This document shows, piece after piece, positions 13,783 through 20,081 of a stretch of 48,230 bases of DNA (position 1 is its first letter; every line of letters starts with the position of its first letter). The notes under the pieces are model-generated. The model did no database searches. It was not told the DNA's origin and was given only the letters and a program-made list of their open reading frames with translations. The stretch is from Actinomycetota bacterium (GTDB taxonomy: Bacteria; Actinomycetota; Acidimicrobiia; Acidimicrobiales; Ilumatobacteraceae). Where the stretch lies: positions 1-48,230 of the forward strand of contig WLGW01000004.1 in assembly GCA_009703055.1 (NCBI GenBank). Reading direction: 5' to 3'. The position numbers were made by a program, and so were the translations under genes.

Positions 13783-14145
13783 ATGAATCGCGTTGCGCTT
13801 CGCAGTCTTGCTTTTGACTGGGTGTGCGTGTTGGCCATGGCCATCATCGGCACCAACAATCACGAAACAGATAACGGAATCTCCGGGGTTTTGTTTGTAG
13901 CCGCACCTTTCCTCATCGCCACCACACTCTCGCGAGTGTTACTGCGTGCGACAAAGAAAGATGAATCAACAGTCGTCGATGGTGTCACTGTCGTTCTGTT
14001 CACCGTGGCCATCGGCATGATCTTGCGACGCTTCGCATTCGATCGTGGAACTGCAACGGCATTTGTGATTGTTGCAACCGTGTTCTTGGGGACAACGATG
14101 CTCGCTTGGCGTGGCCTGATGGCTCGCCGTTCAACAGCGAAGTAG
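13783..14145 (+). CDS. DUF3054 membrane protein
   Basis: A 120-residue integral membrane protein of the DUF3054 family. It has about four hydrophobic segments: the N-terminal RSLAFDWVCVLAMAIIGTNN, the segment around GVLFVAAPFLIATTLSRVLL, TVVLFTVAIGMILRRF, and the family C-terminal GTATAFVIVATVFLGTTMLA followed by WRGLMAR. The function of the family is unknown. It begins seven bases after ino1 and is probably cotranscribed. Its last 33 codons and stop occur again, slightly diverged, at 15008-15109, beyond the SHOCT gene. Of the six differences three are synonymous codon changes, two replace residues (A to G, A to T) and one changes TAG to TAA. Confidence 0.82.
   Translation: MNRVALRSLAFDWVCVLAMAIIGTNNHETDNGISGVLFVAAPFLIATTLSRVLLRATKKDESTVVDGVTVVLFTVAIGMILRRFAFDRGTATAFVIVATVFLGTTMLAWRGLMARRSTAK
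14044..14145 (+). repeat. 102-base direct repeat, copy 1 (intact gene end)
   Basis: The last 34 codons of the DUF3054 gene including the stop. They match 15008-15109 at 96 of 102 positions by my count; the copies are 964 bases apart and enclose the SHOCT gene. Confidence 0.92.
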
Positions 14146-14173: not shown

Positions 14174-14896
14174 TTAAGAAATCAGCCTTCTCTTCATTGA
14201 AAGAAATTCCTCTTCTGTGAGTTCCCCAGCGTCACGAAGGGCTACCAATTTCATTAACTCGTCTGCGAGAGAATTCTGATTCATAGGAACAGAAGCCTGA
14301 GCGACCTCTAGGGAACTCTCTGCACGAGCAATTGGGATTCGGCTTCTTTCGAGCATGTCCAGCACACCTTGCCCCGCTGTTGCCAACTTATGCATGGCCT
14401 TAATATCCCGTTCGGTTGGGGGCGAAATATGAATCAGATGAGTCTCACGATCAGTTGAAATAGTTAGATATAAGTCTCCTCGCTGATTTGAAGTGGTCGT
14501 GAGATTAACTCCCAAAGTGACCCCAGCCATGAGGGTGCGTCCCAATCCGGTCTTCTTAGCGACTTCTGCTGAACTTGAAATTGCATTTAATCTCTCAAAA
14601 ATCGCACGATCTTTTAGAAAGATGCCAGACACTCTTACAAATCCTTTGTCATAAATCCGAACACATTTAGTTCCACAATCCTGTTCAATCACAAGTCGGC
14701 CATACTGCTCAATTTCACGTTGCTTACGTAGGCGTTCCGCCACTTCACGAGCCTCTGCTTCAGAAGCTTTCTGCTTGGCTTTTTCAACACGTTCAGCAGA
14801 TTTTCTTTCTTTTGCCTCAGACTTCAGTCGATCCCGCTCTGCGCGTTCTTGCACCTTCAGCAAATCTTCATCTTCATTTTTGCGACCAAACGGCAT
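14174..14896 (-). CDS. SHOCT-domain protein with coiled coil and PH-like core
   Basis: A 240-residue cytoplasmic protein of unknown function. Residues 7-65 are a highly charged helix rich in E, K, R and A, probably a coiled coil. Residues about 70-170 read as a beta-rich PH-like (DUF4429-like) domain: IEQDCGTKCVRIYDKGFVRV, AISSSAEVAKKTGLGRTLM, GDLYLTISTDRETHLIHISP. The last 30 residues form a SHOCT helix pair, ADELMKLVALRDAGELTEEE followed by FLSMKRRLIS. The start is the ATG at 14896 (MPFGRKNEDED); upstream in-frame residues do not fit. The gene is AT-richer than ino1 next to it and is bracketed by diverged copies of the DUF3054 3' end, which points to acquisition or duplication. SHOCT proteins often attach such modules to membranes or oligomers, but the role here is open. 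Confidence 0.75.
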   Translation of the reverse strand: MPFGRKNEDEDLLKVQERAERDRLKSEAKERKSAERVEKAKQKASEAEAREVAERLRKQREIEQYGRLVIEQDCGTKCVRIYDKGFVRVSGIFLKDRAIFERLNAISSSAEVAKKTGLGRTLMAGVTLGVNLTTTSNQRGDLYLTISTDRETHLIHISPPTERDIKAMHKLATAGQGVLDMLERSRIPIARAESSLEVAQASVPMNQNSLADELMKLVALRDAGELTEEEFLSMKRRLIS

Positions 14897-15007
14897 ATCA
14901 AATCCCAGGTAAACCTTTTCATTTATGGAGACAAAACCGCATTGGGCTTGCCTGCTGCTAACCAAACATTAATCACATTCTTGACATCAAGCATCTCAGT
15001 TAGATCT

Positions 15008-15109
15008 CGCGGAACTGCAACTGCGTTTGTGATTGTTGCAACCGTGTTCTTGGGGACAACGATGCTCGGTTGGCGTGGCCTGATGGCTCGCCGTTCAACA
15101 ACGAAGTAA
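15008..15109 (+). pseudogene. 102-base direct repeat, copy 2 (truncated DUF3054 3' end)
   Basis: A second copy of the DUF3054 C-terminal codons and stop (TAA in place of TAG) with no gene body before it. The frame encodes GTATAFVIVATVFLGTTML and a variant of the following tail (GWRGLMARRSTTK). Three of the six changes are synonymous, which suggests that the copy diverged while part of a working gene, for instance in a relative, before it came to lie here. Confidence 0.85.
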
Positions 15110-15160: not shown

Positions 15161-15181
15161 CCGTTATTCAGCGAATAACGG
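15161..15181 (-). terminator. Hairpin over the stop codon of the downstream clamp-like gene
   Basis: CCGTTATT-CAGCG-AATAACGG, perfect eight-base arms with a five-base loop; the stop codon lies in one arm. No U-run follows on the minus strand. Candidate transcript end of the 16776-15164 operon. Confidence 0.45.
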
Positions 15182-16369
15182 CAAGAAGGTGTGTATGTCC
15201 TTGCACCAAGCCAACGCTTTTGTGAATGTCAGTAAGTGCGCTGCCATGTTGGTGATTCCCTCAGCCGGGAACTCCACAACAAGACGCACCTCATCGTCAC
15301 GCAATGACACTCGTGCACCCACCAAGGCGTCATTCAGCTTGTTGATCTCGCCATAGACCGCCAGAGATTCTGGAACATCATCCGACAAGATTGCCGTCAG
15401 ACGCACAGTCACTGACAAATCATCCGACTCATGCAGTGAGACGTAACACGGATCGCTCTGATTCAGAGTGAACGTCATAAACGATGGAATCTGCTGAGAC
15501 TTCCAGTTGTCTACTTCCACACCAACGTTCTTGAGTTCACGCACCACTTTGTGGTTCCAACGTGCCAGATACTCAGCATCCAACAAGATACGAATACCCC
15601 AATCGTCTCCAACGAAGTATGCGTACTCTGCATTCTCACCATCGATAAAGATGCGTGCATCGCCATCACGATCTTTTGTCAGCAACACTGCCGCCAACTG
15701 GTACGGATAGAACGTGGCTGTGATGGCTCCCACGGTGCTTGCCGGTACAGAACCCGTAAAGCGACAGGAGTCTTGACGACGCCAGTCCATCGTCCATGCC
15801 AACGTGTCCTTATCCAGTGCCACCGCCACAAATGGCATTACGTCATTGGGTGGCCAATCGACGCCACTCGGAAACTTGAACAAAAACTTCGCAAATTGAA
15901 CGATGTCGAGCATTCCGACAGTTGCAATAGCAGGAGTGCTTTCATCGCGATGAGGATTTCCGAGATATGGGAGATCCTGACGCCTGAACTCCACGTTCTG
16001 AGGATGATCAATGGAGAGATACGAACCATTGTCCGACCGCGCAACGATTGTGCCCTCTACCTCATTGCAGAAGAGATCAATTCCATCTCCTCCAGCAATC
16101 ATCTCCATGAGCTGATCAAGGAACAGTTCCGGAATAGGTAGTGCAAATGCTGGATCGGTTGATTCGCCGTCAGCTGTCACCCAGGAAAGGATTGAGCGAT
16201 CACGGATAATCCACAAGCGCTTCCCGTTCTCTCCCTTCGTCAACCACACCACATGGTTCGGACGCATCTTCTGATTTATTGCACTGAGAGTGAGATGCAC
16301 TTCCAAGATTTCACGCAGTGAAATACGGATGCGCCAATCGGAACAATTTGCTTCAAAATCGGGGATCAT
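15164..16369 (-). CDS. Clamp-like plus YbjN-like protein (paralogue B), unknown function
   Basis: A 401-residue soluble protein without signal peptide. I read two repeated alpha/beta units like those of bacterial DNA sliding clamps. The first is about residues 10-135, with LPIPELFLDQLMEMI then GIDLFCNEVEGTIVARSDNG. The second is about 145-265, with FVAVALDKDTLAWTMDW, SVPASTVGAITATF, ARIFIDGENAEYAYFVGDDW and GIRILLD. The last 100 residues resemble the YbjN / type III chaperone fold: YGEINKLNDALVGARVSLRD, then EVRLVVEFPAEGI. Paralogue A at 17026-18219 shares the order and two landmarks at the same residue numbers, WG[IV]RI at 257-261 and EIN at 341-343. The start overlaps the preceding stop (TAATG), so it is translated with the 135-residue gene. 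The clamp assignment is pattern-based and needs structure prediction. Confidence 0.5.
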   Translation of the reverse strand: MIPDFEANCSDWRIRISLREILEVHLTLSAINQKMRPNHVVWLTKGENGKRLWIIRDRSILSWVTADGESTDPAFALPIPELFLDQLMEMIAGGDGIDLFCNEVEGTIVARSDNGSYLSIDHPQNVEFRRQDLPYLGNPHRDESTPAIATVGMLDIVQFAKFLFKFPSGVDWPPNDVMPFVAVALDKDTLAWTMDWRRQDSCRFTGSVPASTVGAITATFYPYQLAAVLLTKDRDGDARIFIDGENAEYAYFVGDDWGIRILLDAEYLARWNHKVVRELKNVGVEVDNWKSQQIPSFMTFTLNQSDPCYVSLHESDDLSVTVRLTAILSDDVPESLAVYGEINKLNDALVGARVSLRDDEVRLVVEFPAEGITNMAAHLLTFTKALAWCKDIHTFLPLFAE

Positions 16370-16776
16370 TACTTGCGCACCACACGAACATGGGTAGAAG
16401 GAACGAAACGCAATGTCGCTGCATCGCCAACAATGCTCGGCCCGAGGTCGGGCTGGTACTGGCTCGATGTTGGAGCTGCTACATCAATGTCATCAAGGAT
16501 GCGATAGACGTCGAGGAAACGATTAGACAACTTCAGCCCAGACTTGATGGAGACCTGCTCAAAGCCGATGACGAACTCGCCCGACTCTGTGCGAGCCAGA
16601 TATGCCCAATTACCGGTCTCGTTCTCAGGACAAGCACCGAGCACATCAATCATGTGACGGTTCAGATCGCGGATCTTTGGTTCGAGGTCGAGAACTACTT
16701 TCTCGATTTCCTCGATGCTCTGAGAGGGGTCAAACGGTTCGAAACCGTCGCCAAATGGGGAAGACGAATAGGACAT
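16369..16776 (-). CDS. Hypothetical protein coupled to clamp-like paralogue B
   Basis: A 135-residue protein that I do not recognise. It starts with a Ser/Phe/Pro-rich, acidic tail (MSYSSSPFGDGFEPFDPSQS), followed by an amphipathic helix (IEEIEKVVLDLEPKIRDLNR) and a mixed segment with GNWAYLARTESGEFVIGFEQ and LKLSNRFLDVYRILDDIDV, ending in strand-like TLRFVPSTHVRVVRK. There are no membrane segments. GGAG lies eight bases before the ATG, a clear ribosome-binding site. The stop overlaps the next start by one base, so the two products are probably made in step and may act together. Confidence 0.7.
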   Translation of the reverse strand: MSYSSSPFGDGFEPFDPSQSIEEIEKVVLDLEPKIRDLNRHMIDVLGACPENETGNWAYLARTESGEFVIGFEQVSIKSGLKLSNRFLDVYRILDDIDVAAPTSSQYQPDLGPSIVGDAATLRFVPSTHVRVVRK

Positions 16777-17025
16777 GCTGATGCTCCTTGTGTAGGGAAT
16801 TCGGTTTGGTAGTAAAAGAAAGTCCGAAAACTGAATCTCGGAAATGTCAGGCCGAGGCTTAGTTCTTGGACATTCGTTTTTGCCGAATTATTCGCATCAA
16901 CATTCCTTTCTGTGGTGAGGGGCTTTCGCGGGGGACGAGTATTTAATCATCAATTAAAAGTCAATGCAACCTTATTTAGCGACGAAGTCAACAAAATATC
17001 TGACGACGATCTCTGTAGACGATTG
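16777..17025. other. AT-rich intergenic stretch
   Basis: No gene seen. It holds the ribosome-binding site (GGAG at 16785) and presumably the promoter of the 16776-15164 operon on the minus strand. Small palindromes are present: TTTAAT-CATCA-ATTAAA at 16942-16958, and AATGTC with GACATT further left. Base composition is clearly richer in A and T than in the biosynthetic genes around. Confidence 0.5.
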
Positions 17026-18219
17026 CTAGAGAAAAACACCGACAACCTCTGCAACAACTTTTGATTTCATCACCAGATCAACGACAGCTTCTGGTGTGAA
17101 CTGCATCTCTTCTGCCACAACATCACGTATTGCAACAAGGTCAGATTCATGACGGACCAACTTCACGTTTGTCCATTGGTTGTTCCAACCATTGATTTCC
17201 GATGCAATCTCCAAGTTCCACGGAGAACCGGGAAGAACGACTGTGGAGAGACGGAAGTAATCCGGCTGCCCATCGAGTCCCTTCACGATTTCCACCGCAA
17301 CATCGGTCCCCTCGAAATGACAATTCACAATCGGGCTCCACCCGATGCGCTCATCTTTGTCAACATCAATCTCATTCTCAGACAGAGTGTGCACCAACGC
17401 ACTGCGATATTGATGCACGGTTTCATTGCCTAATTCAATGCGCACTCCCCAATGAATGCCGTCAAGAAAGGCAATATTTGGGGTCTCATCAGAAAAACAC
17501 AACTTCACTGATTCATTTCCATATGTATCTGAATAAAACAGTTCACGCGGGAGTGCACTGGGGTACGAGGAGAAAGTTCTCGGAGTTGCGCCCTCTGCAA
17601 TGATCGAGACTGAAATCGTAGGACCTCCGAAACTTGACCAATCGCGCTTTGCAATCAGCAATCCGTCTGCAAAAGAAAAGTCAACGAACGGAAGTGGTTC
17701 CTCCTGGTGGTCAAAATCAATTGTCACGGGAAACATCAGATGGGAGTGGCCCAACTGTTGAAGTTCGGCGACATCAACTGTGATGTAGGAAATAGCTGCG
17801 AAGGAAAGATCAATGGGTGCGATGTCTTGCTCTGGAAGATCTAATTCAACATTGAGCAAACCATTGGCAAGCTCAATTTTCCCTTTTTTGAAATCAACAC
17901 GGACAACAGTGGGAAAAACTTCAGGGAAAACATTGGTGACGAATTCCAACACGTTGATGGGAAGAGTGAGATAGCCCTCTCTCGGTCCACCATCTCGCTC
18001 GAATTCACGAAACCCTGTGATGTTCTGCTCCCGCATCACCCACCGACGAGTCGTGTCACCGAACTGCAGCTGGAATCGGAAACCCATCCAAGGGTCTGGT
18101 GCGTAGCGAACCGCCAACTCCAAAATGTTCTTTGCCTCCTCATGGGAGATCTCGAAAGTGAACTTCTCAGGTAGCCCAGCGGGATTATTGACAGCAGTAA
18201 TGGAGGAAGAATCAGACAT
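17026..18219 (-). CDS. Clamp-like plus YbjN-like protein (paralogue A), unknown function
   Basis: A 397-residue soluble protein, the longer-spaced sister of 15164-16369. Residues 17-138 look like a first clamp-type unit (FTFEISHEEAKNILELAVRY, then GYLTLPINVLEFVTNVFPEV and VVRVDFKKGKIELANGLLNV ending in LDLPE). Residues 145-265 form a second unit (FVDFSFADGLLIAKRDW, then SVKLCFSDETPNIAFLDGIH and WGVRIELG). The C-terminal 100 residues, with FRLSTVVLPG, ASEINGWNNQWTNVKLVRHE and FTPEAVVDLVMKS, fit the YbjN-like domain well, a fold shared with type III secretion chaperones. No Shine-Dalgarno or good -10 box was seen, so the start (MSDSSSITAV) is the first reasonable ATG. It is separated from the coupled pair by 249 bases. 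Function unknown; the C-terminal assignment is firmer than the clamp reading. Confidence 0.5.
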   Translation of the reverse strand: MSDSSSITAVNNPAGLPEKFTFEISHEEAKNILELAVRYAPDPWMGFRFQLQFGDTTRRWVMREQNITGFREFERDGGPREGYLTLPINVLEFVTNVFPEVFPTVVRVDFKKGKIELANGLLNVELDLPEQDIAPIDLSFAAISYITVDVAELQQLGHSHLMFPVTIDFDHQEEPLPFVDFSFADGLLIAKRDWSSFGGPTISVSIIAEGATPRTFSSYPSALPRELFYSDTYGNESVKLCFSDETPNIAFLDGIHWGVRIELGNETVHQYRSALVHTLSENEIDVDKDERIGWSPIVNCHFEGTDVAVEIVKGLDGQPDYFRLSTVVLPGSPWNLEIASEINGWNNQWTNVKLVRHESDLVAIRDVVAEEMQFTPEAVVDLVMKSKVVAEVVGVFL

Positions 18220-18311: not shown

Positions 18312-20021
18312 TTATGCAGACGGGTTTGTAATGGCGCCCTTGTCGGCACCTTGCACCAGCATCGCGAACTTTGCGAGTACTCCAGTTGTGTAACGCGGTG
18401 GGTTTGGCTTCCAGCCAACCTTGCGCTTTTCCAACTCAGCAGCATCAACGAGAAGGTCAAGAGACTTCGTGGGCACATCGATTCGGATGATGTCGCCTTC
18501 GTTCACGAACGCAATCGGTCCACCATCAACAGCTTCTGGAGCAACGTGACCAATGCAGAAGCCCCACGTACCGCCCGAGAATCGACCGTCAGTAATGAGA
18601 GCAACTGTGGCACCTAAGCCTGCACCCTTCAATGCGGCAGTGACTGCCAACATCTCACGCATGCCAGGTCCGCCCTTCGGGCCTTCATACCGAATCACAA
18701 TCACGTCACCGTGCTTGATCTCACCGGTCATAATTGCGTCCATTGCGCCGTCTTCACCATCAAAGACTCGTGCAGGACCTTCGAACTGCAACTGATCTTT
18801 TGTGAGACCAGCAACCTTCACCACACTTCCGTTTGGCGCAAGTGAACCAGTAAGAATGTTGATGCCACCTTCGGTGTGAATCGGATTGCTGAGCGGATGC
18901 ACCACGTCACCGTCTGGTTGAGGTGGATTGATGTCGGCCAGATTCTCAGCCATCGTCTTGCCAGTACATGTCATGACGTCGCCGTGCAAAAGACCTGCAT
19001 CAAGAAGGTGCTTCAACACAACAGGAACTCCACCAATGCGGTGAATGTCTGTCATGTGGTACTTGCCGCCTGGCTTTGTGTCTGCAATGTGCGGCACTTT
19101 GTCAGCGATGCGGTTGAAGTCTTCCAACTCCAAATCGACACCTGCTTCATGCGCAATCGCCAACAAGTGGAGCACTGCGTTTGTGCTTCCGCCGAGTGCA
19201 CTCAAGATTGCAATTGCATTCTCAAATGCTTTTTTCGTCATGATGTCGCGCGGACGAATACCGAGGCGCAACAAGTTGACAACAGCTGCACCAGCGCGAC
19301 GCGCATCATCTTCACGTGATTTATCAACTGCAGGCGCAGACGCCGAACCAGGAAGACTCATGCCGAGTGCTTCAGCGATTGACGACATCGTGTTCGCTGT
19401 GAACATGCCGCCACATGCACCTTCGCCAGGGCATGCAGACTTTTCAATCTCCGTCAACTCTTCTTGAGTCATTGTTCCAGCAGCAACTGCGCCAATTGCC
19501 TCAAAGACTGTGGTGATGTCAATGTTTGCCCCATCGTGATGACCAGGCATCGTTGATCCGTTATACACAAAAACACTGGAGAGGTTGAGTCGAGCAGCTG
19601 CCATCAACATGGCCGGGATGCTCTTGTCGCATCCAGCGAATCCGATGAAGCCGTCGAAGCGTTCGCCGTGAATCACTGTTTCAACAGAGTCAGTGATCAC
19701 TTCGCGAGAAACAAGAGAAGCACGCATACCTTCGTGCCCCATACTGATGCCGTCCGAAACGGTGATGGTGCCGAACTCCAGCGCAATGCCTCCGGCAGTG
19801 CGGACGCCTTCCTTGGCTTTATCCGCGAGTCGACGCAACGTCATGTTGCATGGCGTCACTTCATTCCATGCGTTTGCCAAACCAATCTGAGGCTTTTGCC
19901 AGTCATCATCAGTGAGGCCCACTGCTCGCAGCATTGCTCGGGCTGCGGCCTTCTGGTTGCCGTCTGTGACGTCGCGGCTGCGGGGTTTGATGTCGATGGG
20001 GGTGCCGTCAGAAAAGGACAT
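18312..20021 (-). CDS. ilvD: Dihydroxy-acid dehydratase
   Basis: Iron-sulfur enzyme that dehydrates dihydroxy-isovalerate and dihydroxy-methylvalerate, the third common step of branched-chain amino acid synthesis. The 569 residues match the IlvD group rather than the sugar-acid Edd group. Signatures: [20 protein letters not shown] (first cluster cysteine), [20 protein letters not shown] (second cysteine), [18 protein letters not shown] (third cysteine), [19 protein letters not shown] and [21 protein letters not shown] choose the ATG at 20021 ([16 protein letters not shown]). TACCGT seven bases before it suggests a leaderless message; the 18-residue in-frame extension is not needed. It stands apart from ilvBNC, separated by about 7.5 kb. 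Confidence 0.97.
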
Positions 20022-20028
20022 AAGAGCA

Positions 20029-20034
20029 ACGGTA
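20029..20034 (-). promoter_or_regulatory. -10 box of ilvD (leaderless layout)
   Basis: TACCGT on the minus strand, seven bases before the ATG at 20021. Confidence 0.4.
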
Positions 20035-20081
20035 CTCCCGAGGTCAAGTCGCCCATGGAGAATCGGGGGTTGCAATCGTTG

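Follow-up and report, generated by a model that had tools for sequence, protein, structure and literature searches.

Paralogous proteins of an Ilumatobacteraceae locus that appear to join two sliding-clamp-type domains to a YbjN-type chaperone domain

Positions 15,164 to 18,219 of contig WLGW01000004.1 (assembly GCA_009703055.1; an actinomycetotal bacterium of the Ilumatobacteraceae) raise the question of what two related proteins, here called A and B, are built of, and what they do with the product of a small gene, S, that lies between them. The window, which is the whole stretch of DNA analysed (48,230 nucleotides, positions 1 to 48,230 of the contig), carries the three genes on its minus strand: B at 17026..18219 (397 amino acids, aa), S at 16369..16776 (135 aa), and A at 15164..16369 (401 aa). 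An earlier inspection of the letters by themselves (the sequence-only reading) had held that A and B are paralogues that join two sliding-clamp-like units to a YbjN-like domain. Comparisons with relatives indicate that this clamp-clamp-TY architecture, where TY denotes a YbjN/type III-chaperone-type domain, is very probably correct. As to function, the reading that we prefer, at a rough probability of 0.4, is that A and B are scaffolds of the clamp superfamily that hold S by the TY domain or the clamp surface and do not encircle DNA as a ring.

In A, called from its open reading frame (ORF), Pfam, fold, and profiles, a first clamp-like domain (15950..16342, minus strand, approximately residues 10–140) aligned to the central domain of DnaN and a second (15572..15937, minus strand, approximately residues 145–266) to the C-terminal domain of DnaN, both with approximate boundaries; a TY/YbjN-type chaperone domain follows (15170..15571, minus strand, approximately residues 267–400). 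B, called from its ORF, BLASTP, and a tree, has the same layout, with boundaries taken from the alignment to A: 17815..18165 and 17428..17808 for the clamp-like domains and 17029..17427 for the TY/YbjN-type domain, all on the minus strand. The two proteins are homologous by BLASTP (68 of 327 columns identical, 21%, E 6e-10). Their landmarks do stand at identical residue numbers, WG[IV]RI at 257–261 and EIN at 341–343, and both carry the IN-x-[LW]-N pattern (EINKLN in A, EINGWN in B), as had been claimed. The LPI-x(3)-[LF] helix that the same inspection had placed in every repeat was found exactly once, in A (LPIPELF at residue 77); in B it reads LPINVLE, and neither second repeat shows the pattern.

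The clamp homology of the N-terminal part emerged through the profiles of relatives, A and B by themselves and folds predicted from shallow alignments being too weak. A profile of the family (alignment A5, 34 members) was searched against the PDB, and bacterial beta clamps took the first five places (E 1.3e-7 to 4e-4); next came PCNA (0.19), the YbjN-like 2plg (0.39), 2z0l (0.52), which we take to be a viral processivity factor, and DR1245 (0.6). A second profile (A4, 28 rows, relatives from the order) was run on 396 genomes of the phylum and matched in ten: five long family matches (the window's own genome included), four matches to the C-terminal domain only, and one DnaN. This DnaN, from genome G808, was found unprompted (E 8e-6, profile positions 22–227); three Pfam clamp models identify it, and it aligned through its central and C-terminal domains. 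When 45 DnaN proteins were scored with the A4 profile (44 from 60 listed DnaN loci, the others lacking a usable frame, and one, L241, that had come from the family profile's own search), 37 were reported, with a best score of 28.4 bits (the G808 gene), a next best of 23.8, and a median of 10.2, while reversed copies of DnaN reached at best 4.3 bits and 450 shuffled copies at best 5.7. In hhalign, the N-terminal part aligned to DnaN with Prob 74 (E 2.9e-5) and its second half alone with Prob 54 (E 1.3e-4), and the two halves aligned to each other with Prob 85 (E 6e-6), which indicates an internal repeat; reversed controls gave E 0.14 and 0.19, and the C-terminal part gave E 0.22 against DnaN. 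The half-to-half alignment superposes two tryptophans of A, W53 (invariant) and W196 (conserved in more than 90%). For these comparisons, the boundaries of the wider relatives in alignments A4, A5, and A10 were set by hand; A5 excludes genus near-duplicates, L154 and L228, and five proteins matched in the C-terminal domain only (L157, L159, L161, L162, and L240), and a fragment of B from L100 was omitted from the large-protein alignments. Taken together, the PDB matches, the unprompted DnaN, the internal repeat, and the reversed and shuffled controls bear out the two clamp-type repeats proposed for the first ~265 residues, and, on this profile evidence, residues 1 to ~266 form two clamp domains, the number found in PCNA and not the three of DnaN.

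Several results weigh against this assignment. The G808 protein was the sole DnaN at threshold among the 396 genomes of the phylum, and the first half (the first clamp-like domain) aligned only weakly to DnaN when taken alone (Prob 3.4, E 0.013). No Pfam clamp model matched A or B at E up to 10; a DnaN profile scored single members of the family at 14.5 bits at best (L151), with −2.0 bits for A and B unscored; and a profile built from the genus only found no clamp in the PDB and gave p 0.058 in hhalign against a first, poor set of DnaN. Likewise, residues 1–268 folded alone had a mean predicted local distance difference test score (pLDDT) of 38.7, and Foldseek with the N-terminal model placed virginiamycin B lyases first (E 5.9e-3) and PCNA from rank 11, a ranking that we put down to noise from a poor model. 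AlphaFold, run with 8 sequences and again with 4, both times left the N-terminal part at low confidence. The element order in this weak model is near (b)abbb-(b)abbb, twice, and (b)abbb-(b)abbb is the order of elements in a clamp domain. A second, structural comparison, applied to the 1000 best chains from Foldseek, listed 50 rows, all of them clamps or clamp complexes by title except 5x06, whose title is unspecific (Z 4.0–5.5, model residues 1–126); because Z values under 8 are weak by the tool's own note, these rows were counted as support only. An unrelated fold in residues 1–270 had been named beforehand as evidence against clamp domains, and none was seen in this low-confidence model.

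The C-terminal part of A and B is a YbjN/type III-chaperone-type domain, and here the sequence-only reading, which had suggested a match to YbjN and CesT, proved right. A barely passes the Pfam model TY-Chap1 (PF22551; 27.1 bits, cut-off 27), and B alone falls below it (13.6 bits); at E up to 1, TY-Chap1 was found in 22 and YbjN in 8 of the 29 genus proteins, and several wider relatives clear the cut-offs of both TY-Chap1 and YbjN (PF10722). AlphaFold predicted the order alpha-bbb-alpha-bb-alpha for residues 265–391 of A, with pLDDT of 67–83 in ten-residue blocks over residues 271–390, save two blocks at 49 and 54. The best structural match is a Pseudomonas aeruginosa biofilm regulator (8q8o, Z 12.3), followed by AmyR (5frk, 11.7), YbjN (6vu7, 11.6), and DR1245 (4h5b, 10.9), together with many type III secretion chaperones (Z 8.8–11.8). 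Exactly this element order is given for DR1245 in the text available from its description (PMC3575483).

The sequence-only reading had treated A and B as the pair to be explained. That pairing was not supported: only 8 of the 32 genus genomes carry two family genes, and an A-type gene accompanied by S is the more constant combination. A survey of the pairing of the small gene at 16369..16776, which was called from its ORF and a family alignment, showed S to be the steadier partner, and of A-type genes, with the S-A arrangement recurring in the order. In the window, the stop codon of S and the start of A overlap by 1 base, and S is preceded by a likely ribosome-binding site, AAGGAG (16784..16789, minus strand), a hexamer found ahead of 13 of the 21 S genes of the genus (L092 being cut by the contig end). 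Among 29 genus genes, an ORF ends between −4 and +4 nucleotides from the start of the large gene in all 19 of A type and in 2 of the 10 of B type. This count took any ORF; the S motif was recognised by a strict pattern in 18 of the 19 A-type cases, and the nineteenth (L089) aligned as S. The other 8 B-type genes, the window's B included, have no abutting S, which tells against S as a general partner, and S is therefore not needed by every family member; the B gene of L085 has a 90-codon frame ending at +8 that lacks the S motif. Of 21 wider loci, nine (L150–L154, L229, L230, L234, and L238) have an S-like ORF ending −4 to +7 from the start, two (L155 and L232) have abutting ORFs of 91 and 73 aa that fall outside the S alignment, and ten have no ORF ending within 10 bases of the start. 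Eight of these ten, which have no S gene next to them, read as clamp-clamp-TY-Chap1 proteins that continue into DUF3293 (PF11697): six pass the Pfam cut-off (L156, L158, L160, L231, L236, and L237), L233 lies below it, and L228 was unscanned.

The S proteins of the genus and of the wider loci match each other (Prob 94, E 1.6e-7). Across 30 proteins (the S of L098 was omitted from the alignments), one Trp is conserved in 30, one Gly in 29, and one His of the tail in 29, and S reads as a core, probably helix, strand pair with the Trp, and helix, followed by a tail. No Pfam family was common to the S members, one of 21 matching Imm32 (E 0.0044); the best PDB rows for S were mini-G-alpha chains (E 0.023, ~55 columns), taken as chance. 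An S profile matched 11 of 395 genomes of the class, ten of which also carry the large gene. The eleventh, G054, loosens the tie, as its S-like domain is the last third of a 319-aa frame (L254 897–1853) with no clamp-YbjN gene in 8 kb; a transposase-like ORF, named by reading, lies at L254 3406–4719. On the gene coupling, S is likely to be a physical partner of A.

Two short motifs were also seen. The S tails of L151, L229, and L230 carry QMGLDF or QLAFDF, which resemble a clamp-binding hexapeptide (shuffled rate 1.8%); because these are 3 of 30 proteins, all of one family, and the motif is absent from the window's S, it was not used as evidence. A protein of another actinobacterial family (L240 5510–6892), which matches the TY part of the profile, has QLDLF near its C terminus, presumably the canonical clamp-binding pentapeptide, and is possibly a second hint of a link between TY domains and clamps.

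A as a single query matched 21 of 100 relatives, all in the genus, and none of the 68 genomes outside it, where relatives appear only with profiles; at E 1e-5 the A4 profile picked up 25 of the 397 genomes searched in the order, three of them through the C-terminal domain alone. Among the 32 genus genomes, the B query matched 19 and the S query 20, the A and B queries also finding each other's type. The 11 genus genomes in which the A query had no match, of which one was matched by B and one by S, are soft absences because many genomes are incomplete. B-type genes form one clade (10 rows, 100/100), but the tree, which carried long-branch warnings, does not set the A-type genes apart as a single clade opposite it (fork 87/81). 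In shallow sets, MAFFT misaligned A and B. B, S, and A lie downstream of a minus-strand gene read as ilvD (dihydroxy-acid dehydratase, named by sequence reading). This gene is upstream in 16 of 17 genus loci compared (1.7 kb off in L093), and the same convergent gene, read as inositol-1-phosphate synthase, is downstream in 16 of 17. The comparison used 17 of 24 genus stretches, leaving out seven with too little flank or near-identical sequence; gene families were set by mutual similarity and named by reading. In contrast to this fixed setting, the divergence of the unit (15167–18219) across the genus differs strongly from that of the adjoining ilvD (18315–20075): ilvD is 69–91% identical to the window's across 13 loci (82–91% in 12 of 13), whereas A is 22–49% identical in all but the two closest of 12 loci. 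A fixed place with fast-changing contents points to vertical descent. The ratio of nonsynonymous to synonymous substitution rates (dN/dS) for A, S, and B was 0.04–0.08 against L030 and L032 and 0.13–0.27 against L082. Since dS against L032 exceeds 1, the L032 values are rough, and the more distant pairs show saturation at synonymous sites. Given the low dN/dS, A, S, and B look like real, constrained genes, and the sequences show an evolution that is fast but constrained.

If A and B are scaffolds, the most likely working is as follows. Two clamp domains, best aligned to the central and C-terminal domains of DnaN, and a TY/YbjN-type domain behind them would form the scaffold, and S, whose translation just precedes that of A, would be a partner reserved for A. 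The C-terminal tail of S, with its near-invariant His, would be held either by the TY domain or in the groove that separates the two clamp domains, and the clamp part would set the oligomer and dock other proteins. The S-A complex would then be a cytoplasmic scaffold for recruitment or holding, and not a processivity ring. We infer the contact between S and A, the role of the S tail, and the use of the clamp part as a protein platform, and not all with equal assurance: capture of the tail in the TY domain is a tentative proposal. TY-type domains bind peptides in relatives, and in A and B peptide binding is predicted by analogy. Equally speculative is a broader picture, a clamp branch that has left the replication fork as a PCNA-sized, two-domain platform with a chaperone domain, forming a ring or scaffold (possibly of A and B mixed) that captures co-translated S and co-evolves with it fast in Actinomycetota. 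The available text of PMC3575483 reports direct binding of DR1245, which has the YbjN fold, to the SSB-like DdrB and that no role in radiation resistance was found for DR1245; by analogy, this may serve as a precedent for a YbjN-fold protein that works with a DNA protein.

That same precedent would suit A and B as a real DNA ring, i.e., an accessory two-domain, PCNA-like sliding clamp, maybe a mixed A/B trimer, whose TY domain recruits a protein of repair or replication. Each chain has two clamp domains, like PCNA, and resembles DnaN and PCNA in the profile and fold rows; these points also speak for it, and we nevertheless consider it unlikely. Residues 1–266 are acid in every one of the 34 members, with a mean charge of −6.7 per 100 residues vs −1.7 for whole DnaN. 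The central and C-terminal domains of DnaN form its partner-binding cleft, whose motif we take to be of the TDGHRL type; at the aligned place, A has RDRSIL and B has REQNIT. A working processivity clamp is unlikely because the N-terminal region is acid and a TDGHRL-type motif is not kept. Moreover, the divergence is very fast beside an ilvD that is largely conserved, the A query fails in about a third of the genus genomes (11 of 32, many incomplete), and the genome carries its own DnaN.

The fast divergence of S and A at a fixed place could instead be the mark of an arms race in a conflict module (toxin-antidote, immunity, or anti-phage). Duplication, patchy presence, the weak Imm32 match of one S relative, and the description of TY-Chap1 in ADP-ribose-linked immune systems (in the available part of PMC9503650) fit such a module. 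We doubt it all the same: PADLOC had no match at E up to 1 for any of five proteins (A, B, S, and two wider relatives), no relative turned up in four viral-contig scans, synteny is kept at this place within the genus, and dN/dS is 0.04–0.08 at short distance. Less credible still is the view that the N-terminal part is a generic beta-alpha fold that is clamp-like by chance, A and B being ordinary YbjN-type chaperones with an unrelated N-terminal extension; single sequences do fall short of the clamp models and the N-terminal fold is of low confidence, but chance would have to account for five beta clamps at the head of the PDB search, controls far lower, the internal repeat, and a DnaN found unprompted. 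Finally, that A is an export chaperone keeping S unfolded for secretion is very improbable, since, although the TY fold is common to type III secretion chaperones and chaperone-effector pairs are often arranged as neighbouring genes, S has a conserved core and, to our knowledge, type III secretion is not expected in Acidimicrobiia.

The surroundings of the unit can be described briefly. The closest named records of B are metagenome-assembled genomes of Ilumatobacteraceae, Actinomycetota, and Acidimicrobiaceae. The A-S-B unit has a guanine-plus-cytosine content of 49.2% vs 53.5% for the window, and so the AT-rich part of the "AT-rich, accessory setting" once proposed stands; the accessory part is not supported, the place being syntenic in the genus with ilvD upstream in nearly every locus. 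Further along, the 3′ end of a DUF3054 gene recurs as a direct repeat of 102 nt (95%), at 14043–14144 and 15007–15108, with a SHOCT-domain gene (14174–14965, minus strand) between the copies; this gene looks as if it had been brought in with a duplication.

What is known of clamp domains concerns mainly rings on DNA. If the scaffold reading is true, the clamp fold has been re-used as a protein scaffold; S, A, and B make a small testable system with the prediction that S binds A; and TY-Chap1 gains a wider architecture, including the clamp-clamp-TY-DUF3293 proteins in the same order. The parts are known, and it is their joining, clamp with TY domains, and the S partner that appear new: no description that joins clamp domains with YbjN or TY-Chap was found in the literature of open-licence PMC papers, in line with the suggestion that a clamp platform with a chaperone end is undescribed. 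The name TY-Chap1 comes from work on ADP-ribose-linked systems, where these domains are treated as predicted chaperones, and 'sliding clamp' occurs 0 times in the text available from it (PMC9503650).

Compared with known systems, the family stands between several. The N-terminal region is homologous at the profile level to the central and C-terminal domains of DnaN (PF00712, PF02767, PF02768), but A and B have two clamp domains in ~266 residues followed by a TY domain where DnaN has three, neither matches a clamp model alone, the region is acid, and a separate DnaN is encoded in the genome. PCNA shares the two clamp domains per chain and appears among the profile and fold rows, whereas the family profile scores nearer to DnaN, and A and B carry a TY domain in addition. 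With TY-Chap1 and YbjN proteins, the C-terminal domain shares the Pfam assignment (TY-Chap1 in A, TY-Chap1 and YbjN in wider relatives) and the fold of 6vu7, 5frk, and 4h5b; the solved YbjN, AmyR, and DR1245 chains have 141–149 residues, so the fold is nearly the whole chain there, whereas in A and B it sits behind two clamp domains. The type III secretion chaperones CesT, SycT, SicP, and ExsC resemble the locus in the fold of the C-terminal domain of A and in the small gene beside a chaperone-like gene, but the matches span residues 261–401 of A and have no counterpart of its clamp part. By homology, the A/B family belongs to both the clamp superfamily and the TY-type chaperones, and it is neither DnaN nor PCNA.

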